Source: Flavobacteriales bacterium
GTDB lineage: Bacteria > Bacteroidota > Bacteroidia > Flavobacteriales_F > PHOS-HE28
Assembly (NCBI GenBank): GCA_016788295.1
Contig: JAEUSY010000038.1
Coordinates: forward strand, 1-64,000
Direction of reading: 5' to 3'
DNA length: 64,000 bases
The position numbers and the translations under genes are program-made. Positions 1,642 to 46,913 of this stretch are shown here, one piece after another; positions within the stretch are counted from its first letter, which is position 1, and every line of letters begins with the position of its first letter. The notes beneath the pieces were generated by a model, which did no database searches, was not told where the DNA came from, and saw nothing but the letters and a program-made list of their open reading frames with translations.

Positions 1642-2253
1642 CTACGCCTTGGCTTTGGTCCTGGATGACTTGCGCGCGTGCTTGGCATTGCGCGTTGGAA
1701 CTCCAGCACGCACGCGTTCGACCGTCTTCGCTGACTTCTGCTTCGCCATCAAAGCACGTAGCAGCTTTAGATCCTCGGCCGTGAGCTTGCCCCCGGCGAT
1801 CACTAGGTCCAAATCCTTGGGTTCCGCGATGTATCCCATCTCAACGTTCAGCGAAGTAACGTTCCACAAGATAACTCGCAGCCACTGGTCCAGCGCCAGG
1901 CCTCGTGCAGGCGGATGCGCCCATCGGGGAGCAGCTCCGGCGTTGATCGGCACGCACGTCATCCCCTCGCCGCGGTCGTTCATCGGGTGATAGCGCATGT
2001 CCAGGCTCCCAGCCTCATCCACCAAGGCGAGCAACTGCCCGCTGACAATGCGGCCGCCGGAATAGCGGCACGTCACGATACGGCCCGTTTGCTGGTAGTG
2101 GAACACCACTTCGGGCGAGACCTCGCCATTGGCACTGTTTTTCACGGGAATGAAGCGGCGGTCGTGGCAGTCGATAATGGGGTGTGGGCGGGCGGGTGAG
2201 GTCCGATAGCGAAGCGATCGATGCCTGCTCACGGCTACAAGTGGCTTGGACAA
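1642..2253 (-). pseudogene. Chimeric ORF: frameshifted 'N-acetylglutamate synthase'-annotated small protein plus unknown tail
   Basis: About residues 30-110 (DRRFIPVKNSANGEVSPE, VFHYQQTGRIVTCRYSGG, GLVDEAGSLDMRYH-like) match a small Bacteroidota protein often labelled n-acetylglutamate synthase. The expected C-terminal motif DGRIRLHEAWRWTSG is present but in another frame, reached if one base is removed from the G run at 1926-1929. The family start codon position reads ATT (2176-2178), not ATG. After WTSG the family similarity ends. The remaining open frame finishes with a lysine/arginine-rich tail (HARKSSRTKAKA) that I do not recognise. The whole looks like a decayed gene fused to a second remnant. 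Confidence 0.5.
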
Positions 2254-2280
2254 CTTGAGGTCACAAATTGTGACCTCAAG
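2254..2280 (+). promoter_or_regulatory. Perfect 13-bp-arm palindrome upstream of ORF6N gene (candidate operator)
   Basis: CTTGAGGTCACAA and its exact complement TTGTGACCTCAAG are separated by one base and end 15 nt before the ATG at 2296. The outer 11 bp of both arms recur in the palindrome inside the gene at 2519-2545. The position and two-fold symmetry suit a dimeric regulator or an autoregulatory site. The function is inferred only. Confidence 0.45.
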
Positions 2281-2469
2281 TTCTATTTTGGTCCCATGAG
2301 CAAGGCGCTGGTCAAGATACCGGACGAGATGGTCGCGCGCAGGATCTTCTCGATACGCGGCGAGAACGTGATGCTCGATAGCGACCTGGCGCAGCTCTAC
2401 GGCGTGGAGACCAAGGTGCTCAAGCAGCAGGTGAAGCGCAACATCCAGAGCTTTCCGGAGGACTTCATG

Positions 2470-2489
2470 CCTGCCTTCCGGTAGGCAGG
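2470..2489. repeat. 20-nt palindromic insertion within ORF6N gene
   Basis: CCTGCCTTCCGGTAGGCAGG is an almost perfect palindrome with one mispaired position. It sits exactly between codons ATG (2467-2469) and TTC (2490-2492) of the ORF6N reading frame. Its length, not divisible by three, is the cause of the frameshift. It is probably a small dispersed repeat; no second copy was noticed in this window. Confidence 0.6.
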
Positions 2490-2518
2490 TTCGAACTCAC
2501 AGCCGACGAGTTCGAGCA

Positions 2519-2545
2519 CTTGAGGTCACAGATCGTGACCTCAAG
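2519..2545 (+). repeat. Coding copy of the ORF6N promoter palindrome
   Basis: The arms CTTGAGGTCAC and GTGACCTCAAG flank a 5-nt centre (agatc). They are identical to the outer 11 bp of each arm at 2254-2280. In the restored reading frame this segment encodes the conserved ORF6N residues LRSQIVTSR. Confidence 0.6.
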
Positions 2546-26243: not shown

Positions 26244-26954
26244 TCAATGGCCGCTCACCAGCTCCACATCGAACAGGTCCGCGAGCTCCAGCTTCAGCCT
26301 GTTCTTCACCTCTTCGATGTCCACCAGCCCACCAAGCTCCTTGGCCATACAGGTCACCCCCTTGTCGGCAATTCCGCAGGGAATGATGTTCTCGAAGTAG
26401 CTCAGGTCGGTGTTCACATTGAAAGCGAATCCGTGCATGGTTACCCAGCGGCTGGCGCGGATACCGAAGGCGCAGATCTTGCGCGCTTTGAAGGGGTCGG
26501 TCCAGTCGAGCCATACGCCGGTGAGGCCCTCGATACGCCCGGCCTTGATGCCGTATGCTTCCAGCGTACCGATCACCGCTTCCTCCAGCGTGCGCAGGAA
26601 ACGATGGATGTCCGTGAAGTGATGATCGAGGTCGAAGATGGGATAGCCCACGATCTGCCCCGGCCCGTGGTAGGTGATGTCGCCGCCGCGATCGATGGGG
26701 AAGAACTGCACGCCCTTCTCGCGCATCTCCGCCTCGTTCAGCAACAGATGGCTCTGCTTACCGCTCTTGCCGAGGGTGTACACGTGCGGGTGCTCGCAGA
26801 AGAGCAGGTGGTCCTCAGTGGGCACCTGCTCACTTTCGGGCAGGTTACGGTTGGCGATCTTCCGGTCGATGGTGGCCTGGAAGAGGCGCGTCTGCAGGTC
26901 CCACGCGGTGGCGTAATCGATGAGGCCGAGGTCGCGGTAGTTGATCTGACGCAT
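26244..26954 (-). CDS. lipB: Octanoyl-[ACP]:protein N-octanoyltransferase
   Basis: LipB moves octanoate from acyl carrier protein to lipoyl domains, the first step of endogenous lipoate synthesis. The 236-residue protein shows FCEHPHVYTLGKSGKQSHLL, the family signature RGGDITYHGPGQIVGYPIFD, the catalytic Lys in KARKICAFGIRASRW and the catalytic Cys in ENIIPCGIADKGVTCM. The start ATG (26954) gives MRQINYRDLG; the longer reading frame would run through the inverted repeat beside the GxxExxY gene and is not favoured. Confidence 0.94.
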   Translation of the reverse strand: MRQINYRDLGLIDYATAWDLQTRLFQATIDRKIANRNLPESEQVPTEDHLLFCEHPHVYTLGKSGKQSHLLLNEAEMREKGVQFFPIDRGGDITYHGPGQIVGYPIFDLDHHFTDIHRFLRTLEEAVIGTLEAYGIKAGRIEGLTGVWLDWTDPFKARKICAFGIRASRWVTMHGFAFNVNTDLSYFENIIPCGIADKGVTCMAKELGGLVDIEEVKNRLKLELADLFDVELVSGH

Positions 26955-26957
26955 GTT

Positions 26958-26994
26958 CACCGCAGAGGCGCGAAGGCGCAAAGTTCGCAGAGTG
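26958..26994 (+). repeat. Inverted repeat, left copy, flanking the GxxExxY gene
   Basis: Begins CACCGCAGAGGCGC and continues with a CGCAAAG block and CGCAGAG. It matches the reverse complement of 27395-27430: 14 identical bases at the outer end, then the shared CGCAAAG. Confidence 0.65.
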
Positions 26995-27009
26995 CTTCGA
27001 TAGACGAGT

Positions 27010-27393
27010 TCATTCGACCAATCCATTAACGACCCGGCGCAGGCCTTTTTTGAGAAGTGCTTCATTGAAGTTGATAAGCAGGCCCAACTGGCATCCCGTC
27101 AACTTCAAATAGGTCAGCAGTTGGGCGATATGACTATCATGCAAGGCCTCAACGGCCTTTACTTCAACGATGACCATGCCCTCGACGATAATATCCAGCC
27201 GCAGCGAGGCACCGAGATCCTTGCCGCGGAATGCGATCGGCACTGGAACCTGCTGCTCGACCCGCAATCCTATGTCCCTAAGCACCTGAACCAAGCACAA
27301 TTCATAGACGCCCTCCAGCAGGCCAGGGCCCAGTTCGCGATGGACCTCGATAGAAGCCTGAATGACCTGCGAACTGATCTCGTTATGCGTCAT
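27010..27393 (-). CDS. GxxExxY protein
   Basis: A 127-residue protein of the GxxExxY family, often found in multiple copies in Bacteroidota. The namesake motif is GLLEGVY at residues 25-31. Other family marks are ISSQVIQASIEVHRELGPG, VEQQVPVPIAFRG, LRLDIIVEGMVIVEVKAVE and LLTYLKLTGCQLGLLINFN. The LDIIVE...VEVKAVE pattern resembles the D-ExK core of PD-(D/E)xK nucleases, so DNA cleavage has been suspected, but this is inference. The gene is tightly bracketed by inverted repeats and separates lipB from the isomerase gene. Confidence 0.88.
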   Translation of the reverse strand: MTHNEISSQVIQASIEVHRELGPGLLEGVYELCLVQVLRDIGLRVEQQVPVPIAFRGKDLGASLRLDIIVEGMVIVEVKAVEALHDSHIAQLLTYLKLTGCQLGLLINFNEALLKKGLRRVVNGLVE

Positions 27394-27394
27394 T

Positions 27395-27430
27395 GCCTCG
27401 CGCCCTTTGCGTCCCGGCGCCTCTGCGGTG
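27395..27430 (-). repeat. Inverted repeat, right copy, flanking the GxxExxY gene
   Basis: On the minus strand it reads CACCGCAGAGGCGC then CGGGACGCAAAGGGCGC. It begins two bases before the GxxExxY start codon and lies just downstream of the isomerase stop (27438). It pairs with 26958-26994. Confidence 0.65.
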
Positions 27431-27437
27431 AGCACCC

Positions 27438-28424
27438 TCACTTCACCTCCGCCAACTTCCCCTTCAGCATATTGATCACCGCTATCTCGGTGGGGTCCAC
27501 GCCTTTCTTCTCGGCCCAGTAGTAACTCACCCAGTCGCCGAGGTTGATCAGGAACAATTGGCGCGCGAAGGCGGTGTCGCCCTGGCTCCAAACGTCGTGA
27601 ACGTGGGGCGTGTACTTCTTGAAGACCTCCTTGTTGATCTCCATGCGGATCTGGCTGCGCTCGTGGTCCTCCTTGTGGCGGAAGATCACCACGGCGACGT
27701 CGTCCTTGCCACCGGCCCAGCCCACGAGTTCGTTGTGGTTCATTTCCGGGATGGCGTGGTGCCAGCACAGCTCCTTGCTGTTCTCGTTCACTTGCTGGCG
27801 GAAGCGGATGCTCACGGCCTCGGTGCTCGCCTCGCTGTAGATCACCAGGCGCTTGCCAACTAGCTTTTCCGTCAGCTCCATGGCGGCCTTCTTGATGTCC
27901 TCCTTATCGTGCTCCAGCATGTTGGCGGCGGTCTTGATGGCCCCCTCGAAGCCATCGCCTATGATGCCGAAGTGGTGCAACACGAAGAACTGCTGCACAA
28001 GCGAATAGGCCAGCATGGTGCGGGGCGGGTTGCCACCGGGGATCACAATGTGGTCCAGGCCCTTCGCCTTGGCCATTTCCAGCATGGTGCCACCGCTGGT
28101 GATCACCACTACGCGCGCCCCCTTGTTCAGGGCCTGCTCCATGGCGGCAAGGGTCTCCTCGGTGTTGCCGCTGTAGCTGCAGGCGATCACCAGGCTCTTG
28201 TGGTTCACATAGCCCGGCAGATAGTAGTTGTTGTACACCTCGATGGGGCACTTGGCCTCTTTGTGCACCAGTTGTGCCGCGATGCGCCCACCTATGCCGC
28301 TGCCACCCAGACCGGTGACCACCACGTTGCCGTATGGCCCGCCGGGGGCTTTCAACGTGGCCTTGCGGCCGATCTCCAGGGCTTCCTTCAGTTGTTTCGG
28401 AAAGGCGTCGATGAGGTTGTACAT
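27438..28424 (-). CDS. Bifunctional phosphoglucose/phosphomannose isomerase
   Basis: A 328-residue SIS-domain isomerase. It has VVVTGLGGSGIGGRIAAQLV and VIACSYSGNTEETLAAMEQ (phosphate-binding SIS loops), a conserved NENSKELCWHHAIPEMNHNE region, and the C-terminal VSYYWAEKKGVDPTEIAVIN. It is predicted to interconvert glucose-6-P or mannose-6-P with fructose-6-P in glycolysis and sugar-nucleotide supply. ATG at 28424 (MYNLIDAFPKQL). It is divergent from lysS across a 97-bp region with candidate promoters for both. Confidence 0.88.
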   Translation of the reverse strand: MYNLIDAFPKQLKEALEIGRKATLKAPGGPYGNVVVTGLGGSGIGGRIAAQLVHKEAKCPIEVYNNYYLPGYVNHKSLVIACSYSGNTEETLAAMEQALNKGARVVVITSGGTMLEMAKAKGLDHIVIPGGNPPRTMLAYSLVQQFFVLHHFGIIGDGFEGAIKTAANMLEHDKEDIKKAAMELTEKLVGKRLVIYSEASTEAVSIRFRQQVNENSKELCWHHAIPEMNHNELVGWAGGKDDVAVVIFRHKEDHERSQIRMEINKEVFKKYTPHVHDVWSQGDTAFARQLFLINLGDWVSYYWAEKKGVDPTEIAVINMLKGKLAEVK

Positions 28425-46703: not shown

Positions 46704-46780
46704 CAATGGCCAAAGATCGGGGATGGGCTTCGCCCGTGGAGATCCGTCTTCGATCCAAGATGGGATGAGTGGCGAGTAAG

Positions 46781-46843
46781 CGAGTGGCGAGTAAATGCCC
46801 CAGGTCCGGCACTTATCGCCGCGGGGCATTTACTCGCCACTCG
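46781..46843. repeat. Long perfect inverted repeat between uvrC and lpxD
   Basis: The 21-nt arms 46781-46801 and 46823-46843 are exact reverse complements, separated by 21 nt. The arms contain gagtggcgagt, and further copies of gtggcgagt occur at 46769-46778 and, inverted, at 46860-46875. It lies between the divergent start codons of uvrC and lpxD. Confidence 0.75.
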
Positions 46844-46913
46844 ACGGCCGCAGGCCGAACTCGCCACTCGCCACTCTCCCCCCTACCTTGGCGGTCCATT
46901 ACGAACGCGCCCC

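Follow-up and report, generated by a model that had tools for sequence, protein, structure and literature searches.

Between lipB and an isomerase gene, in the 64,000 nt window from a Flavobacteriales bacterium analysed here (contig JAEUSY010000038.1, positions 1 to 64,000), lies a 127-codon gene of the GxxExxY family with an inverted repeat on each side. A sequence-only reading of this region proposed that the gene and its repeats form a non-autonomous mobile unit, possibly mobilised by its own protein. Are gene and repeats mobile as one piece, and, if so, what might move them?

The unit in the lipB-isomerase gap

A repeat search of the window found two inverted arms of 35 nt each that are 80% complementary and enclose an intact GxxExxY CDS (127 aa; 27010-27393, minus strand) as their only gene. 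Arm 1 (26954-26988, plus strand; core from 26958), beyond the 3' end of the gene, is TGTTCACCGCAGAGGCGCGAAGGCGCAAAGTTCGC read inward, and arm 2 (27400-27434, minus strand), on the 5' side, is TGCTCACCGCAGAGGCGCCGGGACGCAAAGGGCGC read inward. On the left, 21 bp separate the arm's inner edge from the stop codon; on the right, 6 bp separate it from the start codon. The exact 14-mer CACCGCAGAGGCGC is present at 26958-26971 (plus) and 27417-27430 (minus), and a second CGCAAAG block falls inside both extended arms, so the repeats reported by the sequence-only reading were correct in position and sequence, as was their placement next to the gene. With lipB starting at 26954 and the isomerase gene ending in a stop codon at 27438-27440, the whole unit, with a core of 473 bp from arm to arm (26958-27430), takes up essentially the entire gap. 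When the 250 nt either side of the gene were compared for ungapped inverted matches, with a threshold score of 14, the window unit scored 17.5 and none of 111 shuffled pairs reached the threshold. With up to one mismatch, the 14-mer occurs 13 times in the genome and its reversed control not at all. The arm pair is far above chance.

The protein matches TIGR04256 (141.5 bits, cut-off 35; E = 1.4e-41) and PF13366 (139.4 bits, cut-off 22; E = 8.7e-41). Across 42 sequences E27, D67, E77, K79 and Q91 are invariant and Y95 is conserved in at least 90%. We take E27/D67/E77/K79 with Q91/Y95 to be the full PD-(D/E)xK plus QxxxY set of RecB/Cas4-type nucleases. The structure prediction that had been suggested as a check gave an AlphaFold2 model (pLDDT 94.6) that folds like Cas4, with SSO0001 (4ic1) as the best structural match (Z 9.9, rmsd 3.0, 99 aligned). 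The Foldseek match of the model was weak (E = 2.9e-3), and a sequence search of solved structures found no relative. On residues and modelled fold, GxxExxY is a predicted Cas4/RecB-like PD-(D/E)xK nuclease. A known defence system was rejected, as PADLOC returned weak Cas4-like matches only. Where dN/dS could be computed, same-genome copies included, it was 0.03-0.12, and this strong purifying selection indicates that the protein is maintained. The term non-autonomous was not borne out, since the unit has its own intact gene for the predicted Cas4-like nuclease, and it is the gene-less arm pairs described below that look like non-autonomous partners.

Each arm consists of about three imperfect copies of an 8-10 nt word, and GxxExxY arms are self-similar at lags 8-10. 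The words vary among loci (CGCAGAG, CACAGAT, ACAGGAT and more). Median unit lengths are 539 bp in a genus/class sample and 495 bp in a cross-phylum sample, with arms at median distances of 23-64 bp from the matched part of the gene. Single arms did not fold better than shuffled sequences (mean z -0.17 and -0.27; window arms -0.5 and -0.4), and REP controls in the same test gave z of -1.5 and -5.9. Among arm mismatches, sense G-U and A-C were equally common (112 vs 108, p = 0.84), with no wobble excess, and an Rfam search returned no match. Given no wobble asymmetry and no Rfam match, an RNA-hairpin reading of the arms was rejected; as G-U is not in excess over A-C, it is simpler to assume that the arms are recognised as DNA.

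Arm words of this genus (CTTTGCG) are similar to a promoter-like ACCTTTGC upstream of genes (window 26960-26995; L006, L012 and L014), and some arms may, judging from this resemblance, have been co-opted as promoters.

Gene and arms are copied as one unit

Collecting GxxExxY genes with their flanks, as had been proposed, revealed matching arms at most other loci. In the genus/class sample of 111 loci the median inverted score was 18.5 and 77% reached 14, compared with 3.9% of cross-locus pairs, 3.3% of lipB flanks and 0% of shuffles. Same-locus flanks in direct orientation reached 14 in 22.5% of cases, which in part reflects tandem arms beside the gene. The cross-phylum sample, 75 loci in all, spanned about ten phyla (Bacteroidota, Chloroflexota, Planctomycetota, Cyanobacteriota, Desulfobacterota, Acidobacteriota, Verrucomicrobiota, candidate phyla and some Proteobacteria). 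Here 60% reached 14, against 6% of cross-locus pairs and 0% of flanks displaced 950-1200 bp outward; these percentages, like those for the genus/class sample, describe loci picked by profile score or pattern, orthologues included, and are not population estimates. About one-quarter to two-fifths of the sampled genes lack arms above the threshold. The words CACAGAG, CGCAGAG and CGCAAAG recur across the sampled phyla, Chloroflexota, Cyanobacteriota and Planctomycetota among them, and cross-phylum loci have 5.7 inward and 2.1 outward word cores each.

A census of inverted pairs irrespective of gene content, at a score of 16, found 3 in the window and 12 and 10 in two 400 kb samples, compared with 0, 0 and 2 after block shuffling. 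In the two 400 kb samples, word-structured arm pairs 300-600 bp apart enclose only GxxExxY or PF05635 genes. The gene-plus-arms arrangement recurs over many bacterial phyla, and the window unit looks like one copy of a widespread mobile DNA. The family is also multicopy, as the sequence-only reading had stated, with five to seven GxxExxY genes in each of G037, G039 and G052.

Arm words track the lineage of the protein. Among armed loci from different genomes, protein distance and word similarity were coupled with a Mantel r of -0.43 (0/2000 permutations), and across phyla the coupling was -0.32 (0/2000 permutations). Co-inheritance of gene and arms also predicts such coupling, and recognition of the word by the protein is not needed for it.

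Copies within single genomes mark the ends of the unit. L138 and L142, in one genome but in unrelated surroundings, are 89.6% identical over 483 bp, a match that ends 15 and 4 bp past the arms. Two further same-genome pairs match from arm to arm, L149/L150 over 530 bp (81.5%) and L136/L139 over 513 bp (84.8%). Across genomes, the similarity of L030 to L131 and of L098 to L113 ends within 10 bp of the arms. Since duplicates within a genome, in otherwise unrelated flanks, resemble each other no further than the arms, gene and arms travel together, and we conclude that they are one evolutionary unit, copied arm to arm, which upholds the mobile unit postulated from the window. No target-site duplication was evident in the five copy pairs inspected. 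Just outside three of the four arm ends of the duplicated units L136 and L139, both in G051, there is a different repeat, TTGTTACTGTTCGGGT.

Orthologous slots and gene-less pairs

Of 23 species in which lipB and the isomerase gene are adjacent, six have the GxxExxY unit between them. Junctions without the gene, which the sequence-only reading had suggested seeking, were found in relatives; most contain an inverted pair that lacks the gene and is made of different words, in many cases of the period-7 type GAGTGGC. In a tree without the G010 copy, the genes at the lipB site in five congeners group as a single clade (support 93/84; 94% of bootstrap trees). From this grouping we conclude that there was one old insertion at the lipB site that was then inherited, and on this tree, which is without G010, a recent or a repeated independent insertion of the gene at the window site found no support. 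The mobility proposed for the window unit is supported, but this copy is old and inherited, not a recent insertion.

The uraD-uraH site contains a unit with ACCGCAACG arms in G023 and a gene-less 111 bp pair of CACAGAG words in G013, with neighbouring sequence that is 98% and 96% identical. The segment G013:C73:18026-24275 (L336, L337) is 95-96% identical to the uricase region of G023:C32, compared with 82-90% in the surroundings, which suggests that the segment was recently exchanged. In an adjacent intergenic region of this putatively exchanged segment the arm words differ too. Three species share a unit with the same arms at an epimerase-glycosyltransferase site, where others have different pairs and a single-arm remnant is left on one contig from G019, whose assembly has 5% contamination. 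At this slot, L301 (G017) and L310 (G037) have homologous non-GxxExxY ORFs between CGCAGAG and CACAGAG arms, respectively, a pattern that looks as if arms had been swapped around a retained cargo.

The two arms of a slot have similar words within one species (cosine 0.62-0.74). Words from different species at one slot mostly differ, with 63-80% of pairs below a cosine of 0.2. Among species that retain the gene the words are related (0.46 at lipB, 0.95 at the second site), and gene-bearing and gene-less species at the same slot have a word cosine of 0.03. The three slots were chosen for having a unit in some species, and a rate of exchange cannot be read from these values. Simple insertion does not account for the word switch at shared slots. 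Cut-and-copy at the arms, or repair-driven conversion between arm pairs, is proposed as a process that would also explain it.

The words are dispersed well beyond the units. In 43 congeneric genomes, CCGCAGAGGCGCAGAG with up to two mismatches has 643 matches compared with 49 for the reversed pattern, and CCACAGATGACACAGAT has 129 compared with 4 for its control. Among the matches listed, neighbours within 300 bp of one another were convergent in 34 cases, divergent in 3 and tandem in 14, and the convergent ones were spaced 48-148 bp apart. Gene-less convergent pairs and single arms number in the hundreds in the congeneric genomes. For two further words, genomes that carry the cognate gene have higher counts, in comparisons that involve small groups of 7 and 4 genomes (medians 15 vs 5, p = 0.0015, and 12.5 vs 1, p = 0.004; p = 0.007 and 0.015 with the unit's own arms subtracted). 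The exceptions, G033 and G013, are rich in the word without a listed cognate gene.

At 46767-46878 the window also has a convergent inverted pair without a gene, built of period-7 words (GAGTGGCGAGTAA.. / ..TTACTCGCCACTC) of the kind seen at PF05635 genes and at gene-less lipB sites; G025 has a similar pair. Elsewhere in the window (2253-2545), a palindrome, CTTGAGGTCACAAATTGTGACCTCAAG, is found upstream of an ORF6N-like gene, with a close copy in the reading region about 260 bp further on.

PF05635 genes, which encode a four-helix bundle (23S IVP), are multicopy in the genus, where 42 of 43 genomes gave matches. Of 30 sampled loci (L237-L266), 16 have inverted arms, built of period-7 words and self-similar at lags 7, 14 and 21. 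The PF05635 units are a parallel system.

What moves the unit, and how it compares with known systems

Five genomes with 2-7 GxxExxY genes each (G039, G037, G052, G042 and G022) gave no match to Y1_Tnp (PF01797), and the unit-rich G039, G037 and G052 are among them. RAYT genes that do occur in the genomes analysed are flanked by palindromic REPs of other sequence or by no strong arms. RAYT was rejected as the mobiliser, being missing from several unit-rich genomes and having different repeats. Scans for GxxExxY found no match in 50,697 phages, and matches on 8 of 72,556 plasmids and on one viral contig, and phage- or plasmid-borne spread was rejected on these counts. With RAYT absent from several unit-rich genomes, and the family absent from phages and rare on plasmids and viral contigs, the nuclease is the remaining candidate mover inside the unit, and we infer that it drives the unit's movement.

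We consider it probable, though well short of certain, that the window unit is a copy of a widespread chromosomal replicator, a nuclease gene within word arms that resembles REPIN-RAYT but uses a Cas4-like enzyme. The GxxExxY nuclease would recognise its own word and nick or cut at the arms and so set off copying of the segment they bound to intergenic sites elsewhere, often sites with an arm pair already in place. Gene-less pairs would be non-autonomous derivatives, as RAYTs are thought to serve REPINs, and the window copy would stem from a single entry into the lipB-isomerase gap in an ancestor, inherited since. A broader proposal, which we put forward tentatively and give rather less than an even chance, is a new class of prokaryotic replicator: a Cas4-like nuclease acting by itself would read a tandem-word code private to its terminal arms and direct its unit, as well as gene-less pairs, to intergenic slots, where arm pairs of other words would be overwritten. 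The GxxExxY and four-helix-bundle systems would then compete for slots across many phyla.

Alternatively, the arms could be spread by another enzyme, of the host or a transposase, with GxxExxY as cargo that gains from being bracketed. We regard this as unlikely: arms do also bracket PF05635 genes, with period-7 words, and an unrelated ORF in G017 and G037, and the same slots alternate between word classes, but word and GxxExxY lineage are coupled, G039, G037 and G052 lack the best-known candidate, Y1/RAYT, whose flanks are different where it does occur, and the 300-600 bp arm pairs of the two 400 kb samples hold GxxExxY or PF05635 genes alone. Less probable still, by some distance, is that the arms are selected regulatory DNA or RNA (a terminator, promoter or RNA hairpin) between which the gene ended up. 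The intergenic position of units and gene-less pairs fits such a role, as does the likeness of arm words to the promoter-like sequence upstream of lipB in relatives; against it are the lack of a G-U over A-C bias, the presence of identical words in Chloroflexota, Cyanobacteriota, Planctomycetota and others, and the replacement of words at orthologous slots between species. That the gene merely landed among dispersed generic repeats draws on how common the words are in these genomes, and is already refuted by the low cross-locus and shuffled controls; duplication from arm to arm, word-protein coupling and the inward excess of word cores also oppose it, and we give it next to no credence.

No description of the GxxExxY repeats was found in the open-access literature, though one may exist elsewhere, and the gene-plus-arms mobile DNA is apparently undescribed so far. 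GxxExxY is a large multicopy family with no assigned function in open-access sources, where the name was found in print in only two papers, and the link to arms offers it a testable role and explains a family of short intergenic repeats shared across phyla. Should the nuclease indeed read its word, GxxExxY would be a small protein that binds or cuts DNA in a sequence-specific way, with many natural specificities.

Among known systems, Cas4/RecB nucleases share the fold, the catalytic residues and weak Cas4 profile matches, but GxxExxY has only 127 aa, stands alone without a CRISPR context and is enclosed by repeats. Units of the 23S rRNA intervening sequence/PF05635 type (PMC4990558) likewise have a small gene within inverted arms, are multicopy in the genus and often arm-flanked, and their words occur in the same slots as those of the GxxExxY type. 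However, their protein is another one, their words have period 7, their arms are at a greater distance from the gene (medians of 107 and 93 bp), and GxxExxY arms give no RNA-pairing signal. IS elements and MITEs offer a parallel in terminal inverted arms around one gene, movement of the segment as one and gene-less derivatives, whereas the GxxExxY unit has no DDE, HUH or recombinase gene, shows no clear target-site duplication in the five pairs of copies and has arms made of short-word arrays that diverge widely between relatives. In REPIN-RAYT systems, inverted REP doublets occur with TnpA_REP (PMC3116915, PMC8266576). The likeness extends to inverted doublets about 50-150 bp apart scattered between genes, to several word types per genome, each tied to one nuclease lineage, and to single arms that are likely remnants. 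The differences are that GxxExxY arms are tandem words where REPs are palindromes, that the predicted enzyme is of Cas4/RecB-like PD-(D/E)xK type and not a Y1 HUH transposase, and that the GxxExxY gene, often multicopy, is placed between the inverted arms and travels with them. The GxxExxY unit works like REPIN-RAYT or an IS/MITE pair, yet without palindromic arms, Y1 or any other transposase, and GxxExxY with its arms is proposed as a nuclease-based counterpart to REPIN-RAYT.
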